From a virus: a stretch of 32,127 nucleotides of DNA. Numbering within the stretch: the stretch's first letter is position 1; every line of letters starts with the position of its first letter. The position numbers and the translations under genes were made by a program. The notes under the pieces are model-generated. The model was not told the origin of the DNA. It did no database searches and saw nothing but the letters and a program-made list of their open reading frames with translations. The stretch is from the IMG/VR virus record IMGVR_UViG_3300030106_002032, positions 1 through 32,127 of that record; one strand, 5' to 3'. Positions 4,980-24,167 of this stretch are shown here, one piece after another.

Positions 4980-5459
4980 TCATTTTACTACGGCGAGATG
5001 GTTACGCTGAACCGTTTCATTCAGGTAAGCCTCGTCTAGCGCATCTATTAGCGGCGTGGTGTCAAGATCGAAATCTTCAAAGCCTTCCGCAATACTGTCG
5101 AAGTAGCCAAGATTCGGGGGGGATATGCGTAACGCATTCTCCCTGACTCTGGAACCCTCGCCCATAGTGTAGACAAGCACCTCTCCCACTCTGGGTAGGT
5201 CCAGCATCTGTTTGCCGTACAGGTGCGGGTAGCCCTCATATCGATCTAGTTTCTCCTCGTCTTGTTTGCTAATGCGCCATAGGCCCAGCGGTACAGTGAA
5301 GCCTTTGGCCGGCTCGATGTCTGCCACGTCGCGGAAGACTAGCTTCATGTCGGGCACCTCTATGCTGCCAAACGGGGTTGCGTCTGGGCAGCGTTGGGCC
5401 ATGTGTCTCCGGTTTAGGTTGGAGCCATAAGCCCCGTAAAAGTATGGTCTTCTGTTCAT
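4980..5459 (-). CDS. Gamma-glutamylcyclotransferase-like (AIG2/GGCT) protein
   Basis: The start at 5459 gives 159 residues and makes an ATGA overlap with the upstream amidoligase, with AGGAG about nine bases before it. A longer frame to 5525 would run through the amidoligase gene and is unlikely. The fold signature is clear: 'FYGAYGSNL' at residues 7-15 forms the substrate loop, and 'KLDRYEGYPHLY' holds the expected catalytic Glu75. GGCT-fold enzymes release the gamma-glutamyl group as 5-oxoproline or cleave related amide bonds. Pairing with an amidoligase is a known comparative-genomics theme in which the ligase makes an amide linkage and the cyclotransferase-type enzyme removes or edits it. 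The substrate here is unknown. Confidence 0.85.
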   Translation of the reverse strand: MNRRPYFYGAYGSNLNRRHMAQRCPDATPFGSIEVPDMKLVFRDVADIEPAKGFTVPLGLWRISKQDEEKLDRYEGYPHLYGKQMLDLPRVGEVLVYTMGEGSRVRENALRISPPNLGYFDSIAEGFEDFDLDTTPLIDALDEAYLNETVQRNHLAVVK

Positions 5460-6496
5460 GCTGCAAGCTCCTCTTCTCGCTGTGCCATGTATTCGGCTAC
5501 TTCTGGGGTTACTCCAGAAAGCCAACCTGTATCTGCGTCTTGGCCTGCCAGTGCAATCGCTCGGCTAAGTGCGCGAGTGCCTTGGCGGTTTGTAACAGTG
5601 CGACCCTCTGGGGTTCGTTCAGCCATGCTGCGAAGCCAAATGCCAAGGCCGCGAGCATTCACTGTGCCCCGCTTTCCATGCACCCCTTGATCTTCATAGA
5701 ATTGGTCGAGTTGAGCTATTGTCACTTGAAGAGGGGTTATTAGTGCGTGGGTTATCTCCCAGCGGTCGGTGAAGCGTACATGGCGCATCTGTCCTCCTGC
5801 GCGTTCAACCAAGGCGCGCACATGGGAGTACCACCGTGTTTTTGAGAACTGCGGTGCGGCGGCTCCGGTGGAGATGCTGCGCTCTACAAACTGCATAAGA
5901 AAGGCCAACCAGTTAGCGATTTTGCGGAATTCGGTGGTTCCGCCGTGCTGGCGAAACTCGATAGAGCCTCGACCCCCGAGCCCCATGTTCTGGACATTTA
6001 CTTTCTCGTACCGGCGGGCGTGGGACAGGTCGGCAAGGTTGGCGAGTGCGCCAAGTCGGCAGTTACCTGCCCACTGAGATTCCCCTCGGCGGCTTCTAGG
6101 CATTACTCGGTCAATCTGAGCTTGGTACGTGGCGTAACGGTCGTAGACTTTAATGACCTGTTCGGTTGTCAGGTCTCGGCCATCTAAGTGAACGTGGAGG
6201 CCGCAGCTACGGTTAACTGCAACGTCTAGCTCGTTAAGGACGCGGCAAACTTTGCGGAGAGCTTCTAAGCCTTCCTGACCGCGAAGGATTGGGCTAACAA
6301 GCTCGCCGGGGTTCCGGCCACGAAGGCTTGCGTCTGAGACAATCTTCCAATGGTTGCGGGTGGTGTGGTTGTAGCGTTCTGTACGAGCGGGCACGCCTGC
6401 TTCGCAAAGTTTCCGCGCCAATTCCATATGTGTTGCGCCGCTAGCAAATTCAATCTCAATCCCAAAAGCGCGGTCTGTAATGGTGGGTGTTGTCAT
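5456..6496 (-). CDS. Putative amidoligase (COOH-NH2 ligase, glutamine-synthetase-like fold)
   Basis: This 346-residue protein matches the putative amidoligase family. The N-terminal 'FGIEIEF' (Glu14, Glu16) provides metal ligands, 'WKIVSDASL' follows at 50-58, 'GELVSPIL' at 64-71, 'CGLHVHLD' with His101/His103 at 98-105, and 'SIEFRQHGGT' with Glu180, Arg182 and His184 at 178-187. These enzymes use ATP to join a carboxylate to an amine, often building short peptides or amide-linked tags. The C-terminal 100 residues look helical and are less conserved. It heads a two-gene minus-strand operon with the GGCT-like protein, driven by a probable promoter at 6534-6561. A GGA-type ribosome-binding site is weakly visible. 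The biological target is unknown and could be a peptide, a cell-wall component or a protein. Confidence 0.85.
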   Translation of the reverse strand: MTTPTITDRAFGIEIEFASGATHMELARKLCEAGVPARTERYNHTTRNHWKIVSDASLRGRNPGELVSPILRGQEGLEALRKVCRVLNELDVAVNRSCGLHVHLDGRDLTTEQVIKVYDRYATYQAQIDRVMPRSRRGESQWAGNCRLGALANLADLSHARRYEKVNVQNMGLGGRGSIEFRQHGGTTEFRKIANWLAFLMQFVERSISTGAAAPQFSKTRWYSHVRALVERAGGQMRHVRFTDRWEITHALITPLQVTIAQLDQFYEDQGVHGKRGTVNARGLGIWLRSMAERTPEGRTVTNRQGTRALSRAIALAGQDADTGWLSGVTPEVAEYMAQREEELAA

Positions 6497-6638: not shown

Positions 6639-7220
6639 ATGTCGGTAACGATGCCGAATGAAATTGTGATGAGGTCGCCGTCAGCCTTGATTCCGTATGA
6701 TAGAAATCCAAAGACTCACCCGGCTGATCAGATTGAGCAGTTGAAGGCATCCATGCGTGAGTGGGGATGGACTATTCCGATATTGATAGATGAGGCGGGC
6801 GGGGTGATTGCCGGACACGGGCGACTGTATGCGGCATCAGAGATGGGCTTGGAAGAGGTGCCTTGCATTGTCGCCAGCGACTGGCCCGAAGATAAGAAGC
6901 GGGCCTACGTCATAGCTGATAACAGGCTGGCGGAAAATGGGGCGTGGGATGACGGCCTCTTCTTTTCAGAGCTAAGAGGTCTTAGTGATGAGGGGTTTGA
7001 TTTGGCTTTAGTGGGAATGGATCAGAATTTTAGCTTTGATGATTTTGAGCCAAACCTTGAGCCTGTGACCAGCTTTTCTGATGTTACAGACAAAGATATG
7101 GAGAGCGCCTCAAACAAGATAGACAATCAAATTCAAGGCATACAGACCGATTCATCTTTATCAGGGGTTGAGGTCATGTGTCCTTACTGCGCGGAAACAT
7201 TTACGTTTAGCGGAACATAA
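6639..7220 (+). CDS. ParB/sulfiredoxin-fold (ParB-like nuclease domain) protein with C-terminal CxxC
   Basis: Residues 10-100 form a ParB N-terminal-type domain: 'SALIPYDRNPKTHP' at 15-28, the nucleotide-binding loop 'GVIAGHGRLYAA' at 55-66, then 'VPCIVASDW' and 'YVIADNRLAENGAW'. This variant resembles the ParB domain found fused to or next to phage DNA methyltransferases, but no methyltransferase is attached or adjacent. The tail, from about 120 on, is acidic and ends in a zinc-knuckle-like Cys181-x-x-Cys184. There is no obvious ParB helix-turn-helix, so it may not bind parS itself. ParB-fold domains bind CTP or ATP and may act as NTPases or kinases. It is the first gene of the five-gene cassette, with AGGAG eight bases before its ATG. 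Confidence 0.85.
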   Translation: MSVTMPNEIVMRSPSALIPYDRNPKTHPADQIEQLKASMREWGWTIPILIDEAGGVIAGHGRLYAASEMGLEEVPCIVASDWPEDKKRAYVIADNRLAENGAWDDGLFFSELRGLSDEGFDLALVGMDQNFSFDDFEPNLEPVTSFSDVTDKDMESASNKIDNQIQGIQTDSSLSGVEVMCPYCAETFTFSGT

Positions 7221-7783
7221 TGAAGTATATCGTTCGTACCTGTGAAGGCAGAGAAGACTACGCGGCGTATCTAAAAAAGCATATCCCTGATTTGATTGAG
7301 TGCAGGGACTATGAGAGAGACCCGATGGGTAACTTTGTCAAGGCGCTAAAGGCAGCGGGGGATGATTCCTGTGTCCACCTTGAAGATGATGCGATTCTGA
7401 CAAAGGATTTCATTAACAAGGCCGGGATGGTTATTTCAACCCGTCCGGGTATGGTCATTCAATTTTTTTCAATGCGTAAGGCAGATATTGAGATTGGCTC
7501 AAGGGTAGAGCGTGGTGCCTCTTTTATGGCTACCGTTTGCTTTTACATGCCAAAGAAAATGAGCAAAGGGTTACTGGCGTATTTTCCGTCATGGGAGCGC
7601 CGGGAACAGCATCCCACAGGATTTGATCTTACTGTTGCGGATTACCTAAAGAAGACCAGACAAAAGTATTATATTCATTGCCCAAATCTAGTAGATCATC
7701 GTGTGGGCAAGTCTGAGATAGATAGCCGCCGGTCCACGAAAAGAGTAAGCGTTACATTCCAAGACCCGATAGATTTTGAATAA
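7220..7783 (+). CDS. Glycosyltransferase-like protein (GT25-like pattern)
   Basis: This 187-residue protein has features of a small GT-A-fold glycosyltransferase. A beta-alpha start 'KYIVRTCEGREDYAAYL' is followed by a DxD-like acidic motif in 'CVHLEDDAILTKDF' (Glu55-Asp56-Asp57) for the metal-bound nucleotide sugar. A second acidic site lies in 'GFDLTVADYL' (Asp136). A C-terminal 'CPNLVDHRVGKSEIDS' recalls the terminal segment of family 25 lipopolysaccharide transferases. It would transfer a sugar from a nucleotide sugar to an unknown acceptor: DNA, protein or surface glycan. It overlaps the ParB-like stop by one base and is followed by the cupin-like gene five bases after its stop. Small size and context allow a DNA-glycosylating role, but this is inference. 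Confidence 0.65.
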   Translation: MKYIVRTCEGREDYAAYLKKHIPDLIECRDYERDPMGNFVKALKAAGDDSCVHLEDDAILTKDFINKAGMVISTRPGMVIQFFSMRKADIEIGSRVERGASFMATVCFYMPKKMSKGLLAYFPSWERREQHPTGFDLTVADYLKKTRQKYYIHCPNLVDHRVGKSEIDSRRSTKRVSVTFQDPIDFE

Positions 7784-7788
7784 ATTTG

Positions 7789-8319
7789 ATGAATGTTGGC
7801 TGGAGCTATGAGTTATCCGATGACCAACGGCCCAATCCTGTGGTCCATGTTCAGCAGGTAGCGCTTCCAGAGGGGATTTTTTTCCCAACTGAGCAGTCTT
7901 TGCTTAAAGTGTTTAAGACCAATGGGTTTAAGCCGAAGGCGGGGAGGCTAAAGGCTTGGGGGCGGTCTAGGGGCGATGACGGCAAAATAAAATATAAAGA
8001 TGATCCTCACTGGATAGCAGTCAGGAATGGCACGCCTCTGCACCTTGATCCCCCTTATCCAAGGTATAGCCACCACTTAAAGGTCCGTGTTGATAATGCC
8101 TTTTTCGTCAGAGGAATTGATCAAGTGGAGCTTCCTTTGAGGAGGGGCACATTTTATGTGCTAGATACTCACAGCCCGCATCAAGTTATTAACAAGGGGA
8201 TGGTAGACGGATGGAACGTGGCGGTCTCTATTGATAGCAATTCTGTATGGGATTCAGGCAAGGCGATTAGCTGCTGCTTGGAGTTTGCGTTGAGCAATTC
8301 TTTTTACGAGGCGGCATGA
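7789..8319 (+). CDS. Double-stranded beta-helix (cupin / 2OG-Fe(II) dioxygenase-like) protein
   Basis: The ATG at 7789 gives 176 residues; a TTG at 7786 would add one. The second half has the layout of a double-stranded beta-helix oxygenase: an H-x-D iron-site motif in 'GTPLHLDPP' (His85, Asp87), strands 'HHLKVRVDN' and 'RGTFYVLDT', then a distal histidine in 'HSPHQVINKG' (His131, alternatively His128). In 2-oxoglutarate dioxygenases an Arg or Lys about ten residues after the distal His holds the cosubstrate. Here that region reads DGWNVAVSID, so the anchor is missing or comes from elsewhere (Lys136 is close). It may therefore be a hydroxylase with an altered cosubstrate site or a non-2OG cupin. 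It overlaps the IbrA-like start in an ATGA junction. Confidence 0.6.
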   Translation: MNVGWSYELSDDQRPNPVVHVQQVALPEGIFFPTEQSLLKVFKTNGFKPKAGRLKAWGRSRGDDGKIKYKDDPHWIAVRNGTPLHLDPPYPRYSHHLKVRVDNAFFVRGIDQVELPLRRGTFYVLDTHSPHQVINKGMVDGWNVAVSIDSNSVWDSGKAISCCLEFALSNSFYEAA

Positions 8320-9488
8320 AGATATTTCTAAAGGAGAATGTCTGGGATGCAGCTATAGCTAGGTTTCATCGGATTTTCGATGAGTTTGAAAATGTGGTGA
8401 TCAGTACCAGCGGGGGAAAGGATAGCGTTGTCATTATGCAGCTTGCCCTTATGGTTGCTAAGGATCGAGGCAAGCTACCGCTGAAAATGATGTTTTTGGA
8501 TCAGGAAGCAGAATATCGCATGACTATTGAGTACATGCGAAAGGCAATGTCAGATTCTCGTGTAGAACCATTGTGGATTCAGTGCCCAATTCGCCTATTC
8601 AATGCTACTTCTATGGAGCAGCCTTGGCTTAATTGCTGGGAAGAAGGCGGGGAATGGATGCGGCCCAAAGAGCAAATCGGCATCAAGGATAACGTGTTTG
8701 GCACGGATAGGTTTCACGATATTTTCCAAAAGATACTGGACTATTATTTTCCAGATAAGCCTGCCTGTTACGTTGCGGGGGTCAGGGCAGAGGAAAGCCC
8801 GACAAGGCTGGCAGGATTAACCTCTCAGCCTACTTATAAGGATATAACTTGGGGCAAGAAGCTAAACGTAAAAAAAGGCCACTTCACCTTCTACCCAATT
8901 TGGGATTGGAATCTAAGTGATGTATGGAAAGCCATCCATACTAATAAGTGGGACTACTGTGAAATCTATGACCACTTGTATAGGTACGGTATAGCCCCTA
9001 GAAACATGAGGGTTTCAAACCTGCATCACGAGACTGCGGTTCACAGCCTGTTCTTCTTGCACGAAATAGAGCCTGATACTTGGAATGCTCTAACCAAGCG
9101 GCTTGACGGGATAAATCAAGCGAAACATATGGAAAAACATGAAATGTTTGCGGTTCAGGATCTGCCTTTCATGTTCTCCTCTTGGGTGGAATATCGCGAT
9201 TATTTAACAGACCACTTGATTACCATCCCCGAAAATAGGGACAAGTTTCATAGAAAGTGGACGGCAATGGACAAAGTTTATAGTCAAATGAAGAAGCCGG
9301 AAGACCTGATAAAAAAGCAAATAGCCTCGGTATTGGTGAATGATTGGGAGTTTGTAAAGCTTGCCGGCTGGTTGAACAGTAGTCCGCTGATGATTACTTA
9401 TAGAGATTGGTTCAAGGGCAACCTAGGCAATAGGGTCAGGAAGGCAAGCAATATGATCTACATACCGGATGAGGTGACTAATGGGTGA
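8316..9488 (+). CDS. ibrA: IbrA-like PAPS-reductase-family (PP-loop, DUF3440) protein
   Basis: This 390-residue protein starts with an ATP-pyrophosphatase PP-loop: 'VVISTSGGKDSVVI', Ser32-Gly-Gly-Lys-Asp-Ser37. 'PLKMMFLDQEAEY' is the following strand, and 'CYVAGVRAEESPTRLAGL' the region that corresponds to the adenylyl-binding part of PAPS reductases. 'GKKLNVKKGHFTFYPIWDWNLSDVWKAI' and the C-terminal half match the IbrA/DUF3440 style. PP-loop enzymes activate a substrate by adenylation, often for sulfur transfer. IbrA and IbrB were described as a pair in Escherichia coli prophages as activators of immunoglobulin-binding (eib) genes, with unknown biochemistry. The next gene is an IbrB homologue with an eight-base overlap, so the classic pair is intact here inside a lytic-type gene block. 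Confidence 0.88.
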   Translation: MKIFLKENVWDAAIARFHRIFDEFENVVISTSGGKDSVVIMQLALMVAKDRGKLPLKMMFLDQEAEYRMTIEYMRKAMSDSRVEPLWIQCPIRLFNATSMEQPWLNCWEEGGEWMRPKEQIGIKDNVFGTDRFHDIFQKILDYYFPDKPACYVAGVRAEESPTRLAGLTSQPTYKDITWGKKLNVKKGHFTFYPIWDWNLSDVWKAIHTNKWDYCEIYDHLYRYGIAPRNMRVSNLHHETAVHSLFFLHEIEPDTWNALTKRLDGINQAKHMEKHEMFAVQDLPFMFSSWVEYRDYLTDHLITIPENRDKFHRKWTAMDKVYSQMKKPEDLIKKQIASVLVNDWEFVKLAGWLNSSPLMITYRDWFKGNLGNRVRKASNMIYIPDEVTNG

Positions 9489-10038
9489 CTTGAAAGAGCA
9501 TCCTGTTAGCCATGTTCAGTGGGTTGACGTAGATATGGTTCAGCCTAATGACTACAACCCTAACAATGTGGCGGGAGCGGAAATGGGTCTGCTCTATACC
9601 TCGATAAAGCATGACGGATATACGCAGCCCATAGTGACCATACGGGATGACGAGAAAGGCAAGTACGTCATAGTGGATGGGTTTCACAGGTACTTCATCT
9701 GCAAGAACAACAAAGACATAAGTGACTCAACCGGGGGCAAGGTTCCGATAGTGGTCATAAATAAAGACATCAATGAGCGCATGGCGTCCACAGTCAGGCA
9801 CAACCGGGCAAGGGGAAAGCATTCAGTCACCGGCATGTCTAATATGGTGTTCAACATGCTAGACAATGGCTGGAGTGACTCAGAGGTATGTAATCATCTA
9901 GGCATGGAGCCGGATGAACTGCTAAGGCTCAAACATATAACGGGCTTCTCTAAGCTATTCGCTGATGCGGAGTACAGTAAGGCATGGGTGACTAAGCGGC
10001 AGATCAAACTAAAAAAAGAGTACGCTGATAGCAATTAG
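9481..10038 (+). CDS. ibrB: IbrB-like ParB-domain protein
   Basis: This 185-residue protein has a ParB/sulfiredoxin-fold domain: 'VDMVQPNDYNPN' at 17-28, 'IVDGFHRYFIC' at 64-74 with the GFHR loop at 67-70, and the IbrB-characteristic 'STVRHNRARGKHS' at 103-115. A helix-turn-helix-like segment follows ('MLDNGWSDSEVCNHLGMEPDELLRLKHITGF', about 126-156). So unlike the first ParB-like protein this one may bind nucleic acid. It overlaps the IbrA-like gene by eight bases, and the next gene is the small terminase. Known IbrA/IbrB work implicates gene activation in the host. A DNA- or RNA-modifying complex is another possibility. The family assignment is strong, the function open. Confidence 0.88.
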   Translation: MGDLKEHPVSHVQWVDVDMVQPNDYNPNNVAGAEMGLLYTSIKHDGYTQPIVTIRDDEKGKYVIVDGFHRYFICKNNKDISDSTGGKVPIVVINKDINERMASTVRHNRARGKHSVTGMSNMVFNMLDNGWSDSEVCNHLGMEPDELLRLKHITGFSKLFADAEYSKAWVTKRQIKLKKEYADSN

Positions 10039-10070: not shown

Positions 10071-10622
10071 ATGATTAGCGACGCAATCAAGCAACAGATT
10101 AGGGATGAGTTTGTCCACGGGCATATGGATGAGCAGGGGGTGCGTCAGTTCCCTACCCTGTCGGCCTTGGCGATTAAGCATGACGTAAGTCAGCGGACGC
10201 TATACCGCTACAACGAGTCTGAGGACTGGCAGCGGCAGAAAAACGAGTATCAGACAGAGCTAACCCAGCGTCTGGATGACGAGCGTCTGGAGCAGTTAGT
10301 TGAGCAAGGCAAAACGCTAGACACTAATGCCCTACAGATTGCCAATTTCATGCTCGGGCGGGTCGGAAGACGGCTTCAAACCGCCGCGCAGATGGAAAGA
10401 GACAGTGACGGGCTGATGGTAATAAGTGCCCGAGAGTTGCATGAGTTATCCCAAGTTACGGCAAACGCCCAAAAGGTCGGCAAGTTAGCGCTAGGTCAGG
10501 CGCAGGAAATATCTAAGGTGTCCGCAGATGTCAGCAATCCCGAAGCCTTCTCAGCAGTTATGGAGCAACTTGACCAGCTTGCGGAATCAAGGGCATCAGA
10601 AAACCGCACAGACGTACACTGA
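10071..10622 (+). CDS. terS: Terminase small subunit (probable)
   Basis: This 183-residue protein has an N-terminal helix-turn-helix: 'TLSALAIKHDVSQRTLYRYNESEDWQRQKNEY' at about 29-60, with the Trp of a typical small-terminase DNA-recognition domain. A long helical oligomerisation region follows (65-160). It lies directly before and overlaps the large terminase by 95 bases, the usual place for the packaging-site recognition subunit. Sequence similarity in this family is low, so the call rests on the helix-turn-helix and position. The 32-base gap upstream follows the IbrB-like stop. Confidence 0.8.
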   Translation: MISDAIKQQIRDEFVHGHMDEQGVRQFPTLSALAIKHDVSQRTLYRYNESEDWQRQKNEYQTELTQRLDDERLEQLVEQGKTLDTNALQIANFMLGRVGRRLQTAAQMERDSDGLMVISARELHELSQVTANAQKVGKLALGQAQEISKVSADVSNPEAFSAVMEQLDQLAESRASENRTDVH

Positions 10623-11826
10623 GTGGCTGGCAAAGGCCCGTGATACTCAAATAACCCCGCCGGGGGATTGGCATATATGGCTAATTCTTGCCGGCAGGGG
10701 CTGGGGCAAAACCCAGACGGGCAGTATGGATGCGCTTATCTATGCCTTGAGAAACCCTGATTCCCGCGTGGCGGTTGTTACCCCTACATTTGGCGATTTG
10801 CGCCGAGTGGCGTTTGAGGGGGTGTCTGGGATACTGAAACAGCTAAGCCCCGAATGCTTGCTCCGAGGGCGTGGGCATGGGTACAACTCGTCGGCCAGTG
10901 AGATACGGCTTTATAATGGTTCTATCATTATGGGCTTCTCAGCGACGGAGCCAGACAGGCTAAGGGGTCCGCAGTTTCACCGCGCATGGTGCGATGAGCT
11001 AGCGGCTTGGAGATACCCCGAGGCTTTTGATCAGCTTATGTTTGCCCTTCGCTTGGGGGACAACCCCAGATGTGTAATCACTACCACGCCCAAACCGACG
11101 CCCTTGGTTCGCGGCCTCCTTGAGCGGAATGATGTGTTTGTAACAAAGGGGAACACGTTTGAAAACGAGGACAACCTAGCCCCGACCACCTTGGCGATGC
11201 TTAGAGAAAGATATGAAGGCACTGCATTAGGGCGGCAGGAACTATATGCCGAGGTTTTGGATAACATGGAAGGTGCCCTGTGGAACAGGGACATGATTGA
11301 AAAAGGCAGGGTAGGGAAAGAGCAAGTTCCTGATATGTCTAGGATTGTGGTCGCGGTTGATCCGGCGGTTACCTCCGGGGATGACTCAGATGAAACCGGG
11401 ATTGTGGTGGTTGGTCGCACGAATCAAGAGTTTTACGTGCTGGACGATATTAGCGGGAAATACTCCCCGGATGAGTGGGGGCGCTTGGCGGTTCGGTCCT
11501 TTTATAACTGGAACGCAGATCAAATCATTGCTGAAGTGAACAACGGCGGGGACTTGGTGGAGCGATTGCTAAGAAGCATAGATAGCAATATTCCGTATCG
11601 TAAGGTTCACGCGAGCCGAGGCAAGATGGTTAGAGCGGAGCCAATATCTGCGCTGTATGAGCAGGAAAAGGTGCGTCATGTGGGAGGGTTTGCAGAATTG
11701 GAACAGCAGATGTGTACCTATGATGGGGTCCGGGTCAAACCTAGTCCCGACAGATTGGATGCATTAGTATGGGGGCTTACCGAATTGAGCCGAAGCAGTG
11801 GCACCGCTAGCTGGAGGATCAACTGA
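10528..11826 (+). CDS. terL: Terminase large subunit
   Basis: This 432-residue packaging motor has an N-terminal ATPase: Walker A 'LAGRGWGKT' at 54-62, Walker B 'AWCDELAAW' with Asp156/Glu157, and the coupling motif TTTP at 185-188. A C-terminal RNase H-like nuclease follows with Asp278 in 'VVAVDPAV', Glu335 in 'IIAEVNNGG' and Asp411 in 'SPDRLDALVWG'. It cuts concatemers and pumps DNA into the prohead. It starts 95 bases inside the small terminase. The start is supported by AAGGTG upstream and by the length of the N-terminal lead-in ('EWLAKARDTQITPPGDWHIWL'), normal for this class. Confidence 0.95.
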   Translation: MSAIPKPSQQLWSNLTSLRNQGHQKTAQTYTEWLAKARDTQITPPGDWHIWLILAGRGWGKTQTGSMDALIYALRNPDSRVAVVTPTFGDLRRVAFEGVSGILKQLSPECLLRGRGHGYNSSASEIRLYNGSIIMGFSATEPDRLRGPQFHRAWCDELAAWRYPEAFDQLMFALRLGDNPRCVITTTPKPTPLVRGLLERNDVFVTKGNTFENEDNLAPTTLAMLRERYEGTALGRQELYAEVLDNMEGALWNRDMIEKGRVGKEQVPDMSRIVVAVDPAVTSGDDSDETGIVVVGRTNQEFYVLDDISGKYSPDEWGRLAVRSFYNWNADQIIAEVNNGGDLVERLLRSIDSNIPYRKVHASRGKMVRAEPISALYEQEKVRHVGGFAELEQQMCTYDGVRVKPSPDRLDALVWGLTELSRSSGTASWRIN

Positions 11827-19082: not shown

Positions 19083-22000
19083 ATGGCGACAATCGTAACC
19101 CGTTCGGGCAAAGGCTCGCCGCTAACCAATACTGAAGTTGACGCTAACTTCACAAACCTGAACAGCGATAAGTTAGAGCTTTCAGGCGGCACCATGACGG
19201 GCAACCTCGTGGTCCCAAATTTAAGCATCACGAGTACAAATTGGTTCGGGTTTGGAGATTACGGCGAAAGAATCAGCGGCTCTAACGCTGCCAGTAAGCT
19301 TTTCTTTTATACAGATGCGACGCTTGCGCTGACGCTGGAAGATACTCAGGACGCCACGTTCGCTGGAAAAATAACGGCCACAGCGGCGGGGACGAACAGC
19401 AGTCTATACGCTCTGGATTTGAGTCGATCAGGGAGTGGGAGCAGTCCTGACATATGGGCGGATAGCAATAATTTGGTTCTAGGCACAAGTGCCTCTACTG
19501 CTGTTTTAACTCTTTTGAACAGCAATGCTACGTTCGCGGGTGATGTCAGTATTCCGGTAGGAAACAAGCTGTACTTGGGTGGCGGCAGTCACACGTACAT
19601 CTCTGAAGACATTGATGACAGAGTTAGATTCTTTGCCGGAGGCACGGAATTTCTCCGGTTTACCGAAGATTCCAGCGACATAACAAATCTATACACGGAT
19701 ATGAATATTGCTGGCGGTCTCGAAATCGCTCACAGCAGCGACAACGGATTCAAAGTCACTGCAAATGATACGGTTGCTAATACCCCATTTGCAGCAATGC
19801 GCCTTGACTACAATGCGAGTGGTTCCGACACTCTTACAACTGACCGGGCGCATATCGGGCTTGAGATTGACGTAGATTCTAGCGCGTCTGGCGGAGATAC
19901 AAGTAACGAGCATCGGTTGTATGGCGTGTGGACCCACACAAAAGCTACTGGTGATTCAGACCTAGTTTATGGCGGCTATTTCCAAGGTGAAGCAGAGCAG
20001 ACGGCAGGAACAATCACCAGCGTTTTCGGTGTATATGGACGCGCCGATAGTGATCCTGCTGCCGGTACGGTTTCTAGTGCTTATGGCGTGTATGGCTACG
20101 CTCCTATCCAGAATGCTTCCGGTACAGGCGTAACAAATGCGTTCGGGGTATACGGAAAAACCCTACTTCAACAGGCAAACGTAGCAGACGTTGCTCAGCT
20201 AATTGGTGGCTACTTTGAAGTTGAGCTATCTGATCCTCTATCCGGATCAGTTGAAATCAACACGATTTATGCTGTTCGTGCCGAGATCGACAACAACGAC
20301 GAGGACACCGTACACCTCGACATTGATAACACTGAAAGCTATCTCTATTACGGCAACTACGCGGGAACGCAGCCGGGTAATGCCTACGGCGTATACATTG
20401 TTGATGATGTTCCTAGCTACTTTGGGGGAAGCGTAGGTCTAGGCACTTCCGGGCCGACCGAAACGCTTACGGTTGATGGCGATACTAACGTCACGGGTCA
20501 AATGTACATCGGACCTAACAACGCTGATCGCAGACCGTTTGCCAAGAAAAGCAACTGGGGTTATTCATCTTCCTACAAGGCTATCATTTTAGGATCTACC
20601 TCTACCGCACCGGGTACTGAGGTCGAGGGAGCCACTACGATTTCGTTTGGCTACGATCCGTCTACCAATTCTGACGGCTCTTTCAGTGGCGACGGACGAG
20701 AAATCCTTTTTCGGAACGGGCAGACGTTTGTCACCCCTAACAGTGCAAACGATGATTTTAATCAATATCACCTAGTGCTGAAGGACGGCAACGTAGGGAT
20801 AGGCGCAGCGTCACCGTCCAGCCTGCTGCATTTATCGGCAGCGGCAAGTCCTACGCTGCGAATTGTAGATACGACTAATGACTGTACGCTGTTGGCTTAT
20901 GCACAGGACAGCGAAGCAATCGTAGGAACGTACAGCAACCACAATTTAGGGCTGTTCACTAATAGTACCCGCGCAGTAACAATTGATACGTCGCAGAACG
21001 CCACGTTTGCTGGTGCCGCAACTGCTACAGCCTTAACGATTAGTGCTTCCGCTGGAAAGCTCGCTTTCGCCAATGACGCAGCTAATTACTATATCCATCA
21101 GAAAGACACCACTGATGGCATTTTGCTATCCGGTTATTACGGCGTCAGCCTAGGGCATCAGGGTGCTAAGAAATTGCAAGTTGACTCCGCGGGTGTCGAC
21201 ATCACTGGTGACGCCACGGTTTCCGGCGATGTTACTTTTGACTCTGGCAAGAAAATCGGCTTAGAACTTGTCGGTGAAGCAGAAGCCACAGTTGGTCCGG
21301 GCTGGATGACCGTTGCTGCGTATACCAGTGGGCGTCAGCACGGAGAAATCATCGTTACGGACGCCGATAGCGGAGATCATGGGTTCATCCGTATTGACTG
21401 GCTCCACTCCTACGCCGACTCAAATTTCACCGTATTAAATACGGGAGGTCACTCCAACCGCATCACGGGTTGCCGAGTTCTGTATCAAACATCAAATATT
21501 ACCTACGGAACTTACGTTCTTCAGGTGTACGTGACCGTGGAGTCCACTTACGAGGTAAGTGTTTACCACCACCACGGCACAACTGATTACGGTCAGTTCA
21601 CGGTTCAAACCCCGGTCATTGCGGACACAATCACCGGGTACGCCGTGCATGGAAATCAGATTGAGGGGCTGGATAGCTATAGCTTTGCGAGCGAAGAAGG
21701 GATTCAGGCCGGAGGGTCATGCCTGATCAACGGGAGAATGTCCCTTAAAGAAGGAGGAGAGCCGTATGCATACGGTACTCTGCTGTTAGAGGCCAATTCA
21801 TCTAGTCGTCAAATCCGCATATCGCCCCCATCAGACTCAGCGAATGGGTACATTGACTACCGAGGCGGAAACCTCCTATTCAAGGACGACGGCTCCGAGA
21901 CGATGCGGTTTGCCGGTGGGGGCAACATAGTAATAGGACACAGCACAGTTGAATCGTCCATTTGGTCAATTACCCCAAGGCTTCAGATAGAAGGGAACAA

Positions 22001-24167
22001 CGCCAGCACTTCGTCCATGTCTATTGTCAGAAACAGCGAAAATGCCAGCGGTCCTTATTTAGTACTTTCTAAAACCAGAGGCGGGGTAACAGGCACGGAG
22101 GTCATTGTTCAGGATGATGACAACCTTGGAAGCATTCGCTGGTCCGGCGCTGATGGGACAGATAGAGCGTCGCAAGCCGCTGCAATTGATTGCCTTGTAG
22201 ACGGCGCCCCCGGTACTGGCGATATGCCAGCGCGTCTAGTGTTTAGCACGACACAAGATGGCAATGAAGACCCAACTGTCGCGCTGACGCTGAACAGTTC
22301 TCAGGAAGCCACTTTTGCCAGCAAGGTTTTCGTTGGAACAAGCGAACAAATCGAGATCCAGCCTGCCGATGGTTCTGGCAATACAGCAATTCAGATTGAA
22401 GCGCTAACTGGAAAATCTGCGTACATAGATTTAGGGGGAGCTGACTCTGGGGACTACGCTGCTCGGATCATTACCGATCAGACGAACTCAACAATCCACA
22501 GCACCGGAGTGCTTCTCCTTGCGCCTGCGTCAAGCTCCGTCGATCTTCAGTATGCCAACGCGACCAAGCTTCAGACTAGCTTAAAGGGCATCACTGTTAC
22601 CGGAAGAGCAGAAGGGTTCCATCATCCCATCAATACTGATCGCAACTTCGCAATTGGTGATGGGACGGGGGATAACTTTGCGGCTGGTGCATATCGCAAT
22701 ATGCTCATCGGCTACCACGCGGGTCAAAATATTACGACTGGAGACCAAAATACCTTCATAGGCTACGACGCTGGGATCAATGCAAAAACGTCTAGTCTAT
22801 CAACGGCAGTAGGCTATCAAGCAGGAGCAGGGGTAAGTACAGGAACCGATGGAGCGGCGGCTGAGCCGTCTAGTGGAATCACTGCGGTTGGGTATAGGGC
22901 TGGGTATCAAAGTGAAGATGAAGCCGCGAACGGAACATATATAGGTAGAGAAGCTGGACACGGCATCACGACTGGTTATCAGAATACAGCCGTTGGGGCA
23001 TACGCACTTCACGATATTGCGGGAGCGCATCGAAACGCGGCTTTTGGATATATAGCAGGACAAAAATTAGACGGAAATGCGGGGTACAACACCCTTTTAG
23101 GCGGCTATGTAATGAGTACCGCCACGGAATCATCTAACTGTGTGGCTGTAGGCTACCTCGCATTAAGGGGACACACCACAAGTACCCCCGGTACGGGAGA
23201 TAATAACGTCGCCATCGGCCAGCAGGCGATGTACTACTACACGACAGGCCAGCATAACGTATCCGTTGGACATCACTCTGGGTTCAACCTGACCACCGGA
23301 AGTCATAACGTCTTCATGGGCTATTACGCTGGCAACGACATGCTGCGAGCGAGCAATAACATAGCCATTGGCTCAGTCGCACTAGATGAAGCTCAGTATG
23401 ACCATTCTAATGTCGCCGTTGGTTATGGCACTTTAACCCATCAGCGGGTTTACGCAGATCATGCCTCTCAGGATCACACCTATAACGTAGCCGTTGGACA
23501 TGAAGCTGGGTACGAACTAACCACTGGCGTCTATAACACGTTTCTTGGGGCTAAATCTGGGAACCATATTGAGGGAGGTACTAATAATACCCTCTTAGGG
23601 TGGGGCGCTGGGAATGACTTAACGAGCGGTGATTACAATATCTGCATTGGTCGCAGCACTATCGGGGGAGCTGCTGACAGTCATTATCGCTTCACAATTG
23701 GATACAACATCAGTTGTAGCGAAGATAGTCAGGTAACGATTGGTAGAGACGGCGCAGTTATCCGCAATGAGTTTGATACTGACGCGGCTTGGACTCAATC
23801 ATCTGATGTCAGGAAAAAAAGAAACATTCAGACCGACACTCTGGGCTTAGATTTTATAAATGAACTGCGCCCGGTAACCTTCCAGTGGAAGCCCTCCAAT
23901 GAGCATCCTAAGTCTTTAGAGTCTTACTCTGAAACAAACACCATGAATCTTGATGCGACGATACATGGATTGATAGCTCAAGAAGTCAAAGAGGCTATGG
24001 ATAAGGTGGGCGCTCCCACAACCTTTTCTGGGTGGAAAGAAGACCCAGATGGTAGCCAATCCATAAGCCGAGAAATGATGGTTACTCCTTTAATAAACGC
24101 AGTGAAGGAACTGTCAAGTTTAGTAAAGACTTTGCAGGCGGAAGTTGAGGAGCTGAAGAAAAAATGA
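19083..24167 (+). CDS. Giant fiber with YadA-like head repeats and S74 self-cleaving chaperone
   Basis: This 1694-residue fiber opens with the common phage-fiber start 'LTNTEVDANFTNLNSDKLELSGGTMTGNL'. A long beta-structured shaft follows, with 'FGVYG' repeats near residues 318-360. Residues about 1205-1535 are a YadA-head-like region of short repeats ('NTFIGYDAG', 'NVAVGYGTL', 'NVAIGQQAM'). The last about 120 residues are a Peptidase_S74 chaperone domain starting 'SSDVRKKRNI' (Ser1573-Ser1574-Asp1575), with 'GLIAQEVKEAMDKV' further on. In the endosialidase family this domain helps trimerisation and then cuts itself off just before a serine in such an S-D-x-R-x-K motif. It overlaps the next gene by four bases. 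It probably forms a trimeric host-binding fiber, but its site on the virion is uncertain (see findings). Confidence 0.9.
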   Translation: MATIVTRSGKGSPLTNTEVDANFTNLNSDKLELSGGTMTGNLVVPNLSITSTNWFGFGDYGERISGSNAASKLFFYTDATLALTLEDTQDATFAGKITATAAGTNSSLYALDLSRSGSGSSPDIWADSNNLVLGTSASTAVLTLLNSNATFAGDVSIPVGNKLYLGGGSHTYISEDIDDRVRFFAGGTEFLRFTEDSSDITNLYTDMNIAGGLEIAHSSDNGFKVTANDTVANTPFAAMRLDYNASGSDTLTTDRAHIGLEIDVDSSASGGDTSNEHRLYGVWTHTKATGDSDLVYGGYFQGEAEQTAGTITSVFGVYGRADSDPAAGTVSSAYGVYGYAPIQNASGTGVTNAFGVYGKTLLQQANVADVAQLIGGYFEVELSDPLSGSVEINTIYAVRAEIDNNDEDTVHLDIDNTESYLYYGNYAGTQPGNAYGVYIVDDVPSYFGGSVGLGTSGPTETLTVDGDTNVTGQMYIGPNNADRRPFAKKSNWGYSSSYKAIILGSTSTAPGTEVEGATTISFGYDPSTNSDGSFSGDGREILFRNGQTFVTPNSANDDFNQYHLVLKDGNVGIGAASPSSLLHLSAAASPTLRIVDTTNDCTLLAYAQDSEAIVGTYSNHNLGLFTNSTRAVTIDTSQNATFAGAATATALTISASAGKLAFANDAANYYIHQKDTTDGILLSGYYGVSLGHQGAKKLQVDSAGVDITGDATVSGDVTFDSGKKIGLELVGEAEATVGPGWMTVAAYTSGRQHGEIIVTDADSGDHGFIRIDWLHSYADSNFTVLNTGGHSNRITGCRVLYQTSNITYGTYVLQVYVTVESTYEVSVYHHHGTTDYGQFTVQTPVIADTITGYAVHGNQIEGLDSYSFASEEGIQAGGSCLINGRMSLKEGGEPYAYGTLLLEANSSSRQIRISPPSDSANGYIDYRGGNLLFKDDGSETMRFAGGGNIVIGHSTVESSIWSITPRLQIEGNNASTSSMSIVRNSENASGPYLVLSKTRGGVTGTEVIVQDDDNLGSIRWSGADGTDRASQAAAIDCLVDGAPGTGDMPARLVFSTTQDGNEDPTVALTLNSSQEATFASKVFVGTSEQIEIQPADGSGNTAIQIEALTGKSAYIDLGGADSGDYAARIITDQTNSTIHSTGVLLLAPASSSVDLQYANATKLQTSLKGITVTGRAEGFHHPINTDRNFAIGDGTGDNFAAGAYRNMLIGYHAGQNITTGDQNTFIGYDAGINAKTSSLSTAVGYQAGAGVSTGTDGAAAEPSSGITAVGYRAGYQSEDEAANGTYIGREAGHGITTGYQNTAVGAYALHDIAGAHRNAAFGYIAGQKLDGNAGYNTLLGGYVMSTATESSNCVAVGYLALRGHTTSTPGTGDNNVAIGQQAMYYYTTGQHNVSVGHHSGFNLTTGSHNVFMGYYAGNDMLRASNNIAIGSVALDEAQYDHSNVAVGYGTLTHQRVYADHASQDHTYNVAVGHEAGYELTTGVYNTFLGAKSGNHIEGGTNNTLLGWGAGNDLTSGDYNICIGRSTIGGAADSHYRFTIGYNISCSEDSQVTIGRDGAVIRNEFDTDAAWTQSSDVRKKRNIQTDTLGLDFINELRPVTFQWKPSNEHPKSLESYSETNTMNLDATIHGLIAQEVKEAMDKVGAPTTFSGWKEDPDGSQSISREMMVTPLINAVKELSSLVKTLQAEVEELKKK

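Follow-up and report, generated by a model that had tools for sequence, protein, structure and literature searches.

The window analysed here is a stretch of 32,127 nucleotides (positions 1 to 32,127 of the viral record IMGVR_UViG_3300030106_002032), and it carries five plus-strand genes spanning 6639–10038, termed ParB1, GT, DSBH, IbrA and IbrB, which end 32 bp short of the terminase small-subunit gene (Table 1). All five open reading frames were found tightly packed, either overlapping or with gaps of 5 bp or less, as a previous sequence-only reading had described, and the motifs that it had named (GHGR, EDD, HxD, SGGKDS and GFHR) were all located. ParB1 and GT share a single base (TAATG), IbrA overlaps the third gene by four bases and IbrB overlaps IbrA by eight, while the third gene probably starts at the ATG at 7789, a position assigned by homology that lies 5 bp past the GT stop codon. 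None of these is a chance open reading frame, because related genes for each of them are found elsewhere in identical order. Since a promoter and terminator scan returned sites no more numerous than in shuffled sequences, the close packing of the genes is the basis for calling them an operon. The GC contents of GT (0.450) and IbrA (0.443) are both lower than that of TerL (0.533), with the oxygenase-like gene, ParB1 and IbrB being intermediate, which hints at separate acquisition without proving it. The window encodes no recognisable enzyme for the synthesis of a modified dNTP, a point against the DNA-hypermodification reading set out below.

Table 1. Coordinates of the cassette, its motifs and the neighbouring genes in the window
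Feature	Position	Strand	Description or basis
Gamma-glutamyl cyclotransferase-like protein, amidoligase partner	4980..5525	-	PF06094 1.7e-5; phrog_2520 5.6e-22
Amidoligase_2	5456..6496	-	PF12224 4.7e-32
ParB1	6639..7220	+	ParB/Srx-fold protein, of the type that phage DNA methyltransferases carry as a fused ParB domain
GHGR loop of ParB1	6813..6824	+	Sequence
CPYC in conserved C-terminal tail of ParB1 (V-x-CPxCAExF)	7179..7190	+	Invariant in 14 aligned ParB1
GT	7220..7783	+	Putative GT-A-like glycosyltransferase (phrog_854)
EDD of GT, putative metal/sugar-nucleotide motif	7382..7390	+	Alignment with relatives
DSBH	7786..8319	+	Double-stranded beta-helix, Fe(II)-oxygenase-like
HxD (H86, D88) of putative DSBH metal triad	8041..8049	+	Invariant in 49 sequences
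H132, third residue of putative DSBH metal triad	8179..8181	+	Invariant in 49 sequences
IbrA	8316..9488	+	Enzyme of the PP-loop (N-type ATP pyrophosphatase) group; DUF3440 in its C-terminal part
PP-loop SGGKDS of IbrA	8409..8426	+	Sequence
IbrB	9481..10038	+	Second ParB/Srx-fold protein
GFHR loop of IbrB	9679..9690	+	Sequence
TerS, terminase small subunit	10071..10622	+	By position; no family match; recurrent in relatives
TerL, terminase large subunit	10528..11826	+	phrog_979 3.4e-52; PF03237/PF17289

Proteins encoded by the cassette

ParB1 matched phrog_620 (8e-46), the ParB-DNA methyltransferase family phrog_498 (3e-45) and a PADLOC type II methyltransferase model (2e-33), and it shares 44.7% identity over 158 aa with a phage adenine-specific DNA methyltransferase. 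Judged by these comparisons, its nearest kin is the ParB domain found in phage proteins that fuse ParB to a DNA methyltransferase. A CPxC motif was present within the last 40 residues of 186 of the 203 ParB1 open reading frames. IbrB matched phrog_2159 (1.6e-71), and the G-x-HR of its loop is kept in 162/163 relatives. Both proteins scored far under the cut-off of the partition (ParB) model, and no ParA was recognised among the families scanned or in the conserved cassette order.

IbrA matched phrog_2302 (1.8e-79) and PF01507 (3.7e-15), and the S[GS]GKDS signature is present in all 203 IbrA open reading frames. Together with IbrB it forms an adjacent, co-oriented pair of PP-loop (PAPS_reduct plus DUF3440) and ParB-fold genes, in which the intergenic gap is zero or negative in 104 of 108 relatives. 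In cultured phages, IbrA is usually annotated as a PAPS reductase. Its assignment as a CysH-type PAPS reductase was rejected, since the catalytic-cysteine motif EC[GA]xH occurs in 0/203 IbrA; against the CysH model TIGR00434 the score was 21 bits (cut-off 165), and the PAPS-reductase models were likewise far below their cut-offs. The match of IbrA to DndC was weak (2e-6; 19.8 bits versus a cut-off of 290).

GT matched the 'glucosyltransferase' family phrog_854 (8e-9), and its DxD-like acidic motif E55-D56-D57 is invariant across 10 aligned relatives; a GT profile gave no match by sequence to solved structures. The third gene matched no named family, and a single-sequence scan with it found zero viral relatives, and zero among cultured phages, while an alignment-based scan recovered 51 loci. 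AlphaFold2 gave no usable model from 6 similar sequences (pLDDT 45) but a good one from 49 sequences in which the gene is conserved (pLDDT 96.4). This second model folds as a double-stranded beta-helix similar to those of Fe(II)/2-oxoglutarate oxygenases, including AspH, proline 3-hydroxylase (Z 8.4) and a nucleoside-antibiotic hydroxylase (Z 8.0), and thus supports the previous guess of an oxygenase or cupin. Cupins were also among the structural matches, so the fold by itself does not tell an oxygenase from a cupin. There is no conserved Arg/Lys about 10 residues past H132, the usual place of the 2-oxoglutarate-binding basic residue. R93 is nearly invariant among the 49 sequences.

Recurrence and modularity across viruses

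The sequence-only reading had proposed that the five genes may act on one substrate, and it had named non-recurrence of their order as one finding that would speak against this; the exact order turned up in a further 12 non-redundant contigs of viral origin. A survey widened to 126 non-redundant IbrA loci demonstrated a core of ParB1, IbrA, IbrB and usually KYW, an 89-aa family named in this analysis, arranged around a variable slot. This slot usually holds two decorators drawn from 12 families, which include glycosyltransferases, the oxygenase, N6/N4-type and other methyltransferases, acetyltransferases, an AdoMet decarboxylase and an epimerase. Among the 50 loci with full flanks, IbrB and ParB1 were each present in 48, at least one decorator in 48 and exactly two in 35, and TerL lay within 4.5 kb in 41. 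In scans not seeded with IbrA, 40/41 of the oxygenase loci had this gene within 3.5 kb, as did 58/60 of the viral loci with KYW. The cassette stands immediately upstream of three terminase families (33 TerL of the window type, 13 of the phrog_2 type and 8 of the phrog_38 type). A recurring unit beside the terminase is thus borne out by the 12 contigs, the oxygenase loci and in-frame fusions, and the cassette is wider than five genes.

At least 61 changes of decorator combination were counted on a tree of 89 IbrA. The in-frame fusions comprise GTc-IbrA, GT-MT1, KYW-MTd (about 20 open reading frames), KYW-AdoMet decarboxylase and KYW-GNAT. MT1, which alternates with the oxygenase in the slot, is an N6/N4-type methylase with DPPW in 45/47 sequences and a weak match to the methylase part of phrog_498 (1.7e-6), while one KYW-methyltransferase fusion weakly matched the phage 'tRNA methyltransferase' family phrog_4752 (4e-7). 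The pairing of oxygenase with glycosyltransferase, which had been suggested previously, was upheld by an odds ratio of 36 (p=4e-9) and independent contrasts of 6:0, and it is one of many interchangeable decorator pairs. KYW had no match in Pfam, PHROG or PDB and no convincing match in the window, where the best hit (E 0.006) spanned just 16 residues and fell within a different gene, on the minus strand.

Among cultured phages, Microbacterium phage Hendrix has all core parts; in Athena and Wheelbite the core is accompanied by few recognisable decorators or none. Searches of cultured phages by tblastn recovered no KYW, DSBH or MT1, and KYW was detected in Hendrix and Dewdrop solely by profile. 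As a further observation, the amidoligase gene is a frequent neighbour of the cassette, with which it is possibly associated.

Proposed function and rival explanations

Gene content and recurrence place side by side enzymes with the predicted capacity to activate a base and to derivatise it. The favoured explanation, held with modest confidence, is a modular late DNA-hypermodification cassette, in which the target would be adenylated by IbrA and finished by the decorators. The cassette would be expressed together with the packaging genes, and the ParB-fold proteins would bind DNA and nucleotide, directing the chemistry to replicated phage DNA. By analogy with PP-loop ligases and tRNA-base enzymes, the PP-loop of IbrA would adenylate a carbonyl or carboxyl of the target base, so that a substituent could be attached. 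In this phage, the oxygenase-like protein may provide a hydroxyl on which the glycosyltransferase would then place a sugar, whereas in other phages methyl, acetyl or aminopropyl chemistry would be the alternative decoration, and the DNA would enter the capsid already protected against host nucleases. More tentatively, IbrA, IbrB, ParB1 and KYW may form the common engine of a new phage DNA base-modification chemistry, in which the base is adenylated and derivatised before exchangeable decorator pairs act on it, and which spans unrelated terminase types while being hidden in databases under 'PAPS reductase' metabolic genes.

The link to DNA is drawn because ParB1 is nearest to ParB-DNA methyltransferases and MT1 keeps DPPW, and these same two features weigh against the reading that the cassette modifies virion proteins by capsid or tail glycosylation, methylation or acetylation, with the ParB-fold proteins serving as enzymes that use nucleotides and not as binders of DNA. 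This reading is considered unlikely, even though the cassette lies in a late operon next to structural genes and a comparable gene set in cluster O mycobacteriophages has been put forward as acting on the capsid (PMC4351075); a further point against it is that no IbrAB is reported with the cluster O glycosyltransferases in the passages covered. Decorators of the GT, GNAT and O-methyltransferase-like kinds are compatible with it, and because their substrates could be proteins or small molecules they count against the DNA reading. Also weighing against the DNA reading are the IbrAB pairs lacking decorators on an E. coli plasmid and lacking recognised ones in Flavobacterium phages, the scarcity of recognisable decorators in Athena and Wheelbite, the 2-oxoglutarate-binding basic residue not seen at its usual position in the third gene, and the GT profile that matches no solved structure. 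Marginally less likely still is an action on RNA or the nucleotide pool (tRNA, dNTP or cofactor) of the infected cell instead of polymeric DNA. It would fit the tRNA or nucleotides that are common substrates of PP-loop enzymes, the weak phrog_4752 match of the KYW fusion, and the AdoMet decarboxylase and epimerase, which are small-molecule enzymes; however, the cassette adjoins the terminase across several terminase families and ParB1 is akin to DNA methylases.

The sequence-only reading described IbrA and IbrB as activators of eib genes, and it had offered two independent morons as an alternative, with IbrAB as a prophage-gene regulator and ParB/GT/oxygenase as an unrelated unit. Although IbrAB occurs by itself on an E. 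coli plasmid, and without any recognised decorator alongside in Flavobacterium phages, this division is quite improbable, because in-frame fusions such as GTc-IbrA join decorators to core parts; it is also contradicted by the recurrence of the exact order, the presence of IbrA at nearly all oxygenase loci, the near-constant ParB1 and decorators at full-flank loci and the PP-loop kept in every IbrA. Synthesis of DNA phosphorothioates, as in Dnd/Ssp systems, is very improbable: the weak DndC match and the occurrence of the ParB-superfamily protein DndB in Dnd systems (PMC12839542) would favour it, but DndD, DndE and cysteine desulfurase are absent among labelled or clustered cassette genes, and phosphorothioation has no use for glycosyl, methyl or acetyl decorators. 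Least credible of all is that IbrA is a metabolic PAPS reductase, an auxiliary sulfur-metabolism gene with unrelated neighbours, since the PF01507 match and the customary annotation are opposed by the sub-threshold model scores, the missing cysteine motif and the almost constant partnership with IbrB.

Relation to known systems

In the CmoA/CmoX/CmoY system of Synechococcus phage S-B43, the 5-carboxymethylcytosine of phage DNA is hypermodified by an amide ligase of the PP-loop type, and ParBc proteins (PF02195) occur on many contigs (PMC12783734); this serves as a precedent for the favoured reading. A phage ATP PP-loop-type enzyme that elaborates a base, and ParB-fold proteins, would thus be shared with the present cassette. 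However, that ligase is asparagine synthetase-like, whereas IbrA is PAPS-reductase-like; its handle is supplied by a Cx-SAM synthase together with a C5 cytosine carboxymethyltransferase (PMC12783734), neither of which was seen here, and the decorators of IbrA cassettes vary between phages. The phage ParB-DNA methyltransferase fusions of phrog_498 ('DNA modification methylase') carry an N-terminal ParB domain strongly matched by ParB1 and a methylase domain weakly matched by MT1 of the window's relatives. In contrast to them, ParB1 is here encoded on its own and bears a CPxC tail, and the methylase slot is occupied in the window by GT and the oxygenase-like protein. The IbrA/IbrB of enterobacterial prophages and plasmids are likewise adjacent, co-oriented PP-loop and ParB-fold proteins (phrog_2302 and phrog_2159), but the E. 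coli plasmid pair lacks ParB1, KYW and decorators. In cluster O mycobacteriophages (Corndog), an O-methyltransferase and three glycosyltransferase genes lie between portal and protease (PMC4351075); these resemble the cassette in being glycosyl- and methyltransferases in the structural region, proposed as virion modifiers, and differ in that they follow the portal, whereas the cassette precedes the terminase, and in that no IbrAB/ParB core is reported with them in the passages covered.

If the hypermodification reading is true, IbrA/IbrB, mainly a named pair of unexplained chemistry, would gain a testable biochemical role in phages, phage 'PAPS reductase' (cysH-like) metabolic genes would be reclassified as parts of a modification machine, and a mix-and-match route would be added to DNA hypermodification, a main phage escape from restriction and CRISPR. 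No description of the cassette was found in a search that covered chiefly the open literature. IbrA/IbrB are mentioned there for glacial and Flavobacterium phages.

Gene content and recurrence of the cassette

The sequence-only reading had described five packed genes lying directly before the terminase, encoding a ParB-like protein (ParB1), a glycosyltransferase-like protein (GT), a dioxygenase/cupin-like third protein (DSBH), the PP-loop enzyme IbrA and the ParB-fold protein IbrB. All five were found on the + strand, where neighbouring genes either overlap or lie no more than 5 bases apart, 32 bases separate the cassette from the small terminase gene, and every motif named was located in the window, an IMG/VR virus record of 32,127 bases that may be a fragment. 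Family matches were obtained for ParB1 (phrog_620 and phrog_498), GT (phrog_854, glycosyltransferase), IbrA (phrog_2302) and IbrB (phrog_2159), the third gene being the only one of the cassette left without a family match.

IMG/VR was scanned with single proteins and then with alignments of KYW (a family of 89-aa proteins), the third gene and IbrA, yielding about 210 loci from viruses (some contigs contributed several overlapping stretches), which collapsed to 126 at 90% IbrA identity. Locus ORFs were labelled by profile HMMs built in two rounds, and gene orders were then read off, the usual one being ParB1 - KYW - variable genes - IbrA - IbrB - (sometimes ParB1) - TerS - TerL. Among the 50 non-redundant loci with enough flank on both sides, IbrB, ParB1 on one side and at least one decorator (an exchangeable enzyme of the variable slot) were each found in 48, exactly two decorators in 35, TerL within 4.5 kb in 41, and KYW in 33, a frequency that is biased, like that of the third gene, because loci were partly collected with these two queries. 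Adjacency is free of this bias: IbrA lay within 3.5 kb of the third gene in 40 of its 41 non-redundant loci and of KYW in 58 of 60 viral KYW loci. The five-gene order itself, with or without KYW, was seen in 13 non-redundant loci, one of which is the window. The cassette is therefore real and exceeds the five genes originally noticed, being modular, with a fixed core (ParB1, IbrA, IbrB and usually KYW) and exchangeable decorators.

Among cultured phages, terminase is preceded by ParB1, IbrA and IbrB in mycobacteriophage Athena and Arthrobacter phage Wheelbite, and in Microbacterium phage Hendrix the parts are divided between the two genome ends, with IbrA, GT, GTb, an acetyltransferase and a KYW-MTd fusion on one side and TerL, IbrB and two ParB1 genes on the other. 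The IbrA-IbrB pair is present without a decorator on an E. coli plasmid and can thus have its own function. The haloarchaeal plasmid (see table) indicates that an IbrA-like layout exists in archaea too.

Coordinates of features in the window and in survey loci (L-numbers)
Feature	Location	Description
KYW	L002:935-1195 and relatives (A2)	87-101 aa; FAKTMPxIPHxY...KYWTMG...INR
AdoMet decarboxylase-like genes in decorator slot	L163:1914-2282; also L148, L149, L199, L202, L212	
ParB1 C-terminal tail	window 7179-7190 and relatives	strongly conserved, with CPxC (V-x-CPxCAExF)
Genes adjoining cassette	window 4980-6496, - strand	gamma-glutamyl cyclotransferase-like gene and Amidoligase_2 gene
Long ORF	window 19083-24167	1694 aa, repeated segments
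Plasmid of haloarchaeon Actinarchaeum halophilum	L258, 1925-6065	ParB-domain gene between two PAPS-reductase-family genes

Exchange and fusion of decorators

The variable slot holds three glycosyltransferase-like families, DSBH, the N6/N4-type methyltransferase MT1 (DPPW in 45/47), MT2 (EPP[WYF] in 15/26), two other methyltransferases, two acetyltransferase families and an AdoMet decarboxylase (PF02675, 8e-12), the latter hinting at aminopropyl chemistry; a sugar epimerase was seen once among the non-redundant loci, between GT and DSBH. GT accompanied DSBH in 22 of its 24 loci, an odds ratio of 36 (p=4e-9, shared ancestry inflating such p values), and DSBH never co-occurred with MT1, MT2 or GNATb in the labelled loci. 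On a quick IbrA tree of 89 rows, built without a mixture model, independent DSBH-GT contrasts were 6:0 (median p 0.03), and at least 61 changes of decorator combination were counted, indicating that decorators were often swapped around a stable core.

KYW, which had no match in Pfam, PHROG or PDB, is in many cases joined to a class I methyltransferase. Bacterial genomes have it too, without IbrA, among them Rhodothermales MAGs in which it is part of a methyltransferase fusion (L235, L237), and IbrA lay within 3.5 kb in only 2 of 33 KYW loci of cellular genomes. In-frame fusions join KYW to MTd (about 20 ORFs), to AdoMet decarboxylase (L151, L154, L155) and to GNAT (L033), GT to MT1 (L038) and GTc to IbrA (L212), which argues that core and decorators belong to one pathway.

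Predicted activities of IbrA and the third gene

S[GS]GKDS is kept in all 203 confident IbrA ORFs. A metabolic PAPS reductase was rejected, since the CysH cysteine motif occurred in 0/203 of these ORFs and CysH models scored far under their cut-offs against the window IbrA. Because PP-loop enzymes adenylate carbonyl or carboxyl groups and so activate them, IbrA would be the activating enzyme of the cassette.

The confident AlphaFold2 model of DSBH (49 sequences; pLDDT 96.4, pTM 0.91) is a double-stranded beta-helix. Its closest solved structures were Fe(II)/2-oxoglutarate oxygenases, with cupins and sugar isomerases only slightly behind; AspH gave a Foldseek E of 2.4e-4, and proline 3-hydroxylase and a nucleoside-antibiotic hydroxylase gave Z 8.4 and 8.0, values around 8 pointing to a shared arrangement and not to a specific function. 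H86, D88 and H132, invariant in 49/49 sequences, form the putative metal triad. No basic residue for 2-oxoglutarate binding was found at the usual place in DSBH, so 2-oxoglutarate is only a possible cosubstrate.

Proposed substrate of the cassette, and neighbouring genes

The nearest relative of ParB1 is the ParB domain found in adenine-specific DNA methyltransferases of phages (158 residues aligned at 44.7% identity; 2e-33 against a PADLOC type II methyltransferase), and MT1 shows a weak match (1.7e-6) to the methylase portion of phrog_498, the family of ParB-DNA methyltransferases that ParB1 also matches. Three TerL families were found downstream of the cassette. Experiments on phage S-B43 showed that a PP-loop-type ligase hypermodifies DNA cytosine, and ParBc proteins are present on many of the contigs concerned (PMC12783734); the window cassette likewise combines PP-loop IbrA with ParB-fold proteins. 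These similarities, the position before three TerL families and the S-B43 analogy would favour DNA as the substrate over the main rival, modification of a protein, which has been proposed for cluster O mycobacteriophages (PMC4351075). DNA hypermodification is the best reading of the cassette, at slightly better than even chances, and we infer its product, target base and order of steps. The CPxC tail of ParB1 may form one half of a site for zinc or sulfur.

Elsewhere in the window, the long ORF, whose residues 1-539 had no Pfam match, probably encodes a tail or fibre protein. An amidoligase gene shared the fetched stretch in 24 of the 126 non-redundant IbrA loci, its side and orientation varying, and was accompanied by the cyclotransferase in 21 of these 24, an association that may reflect a functional link or merely common phage ancestry.
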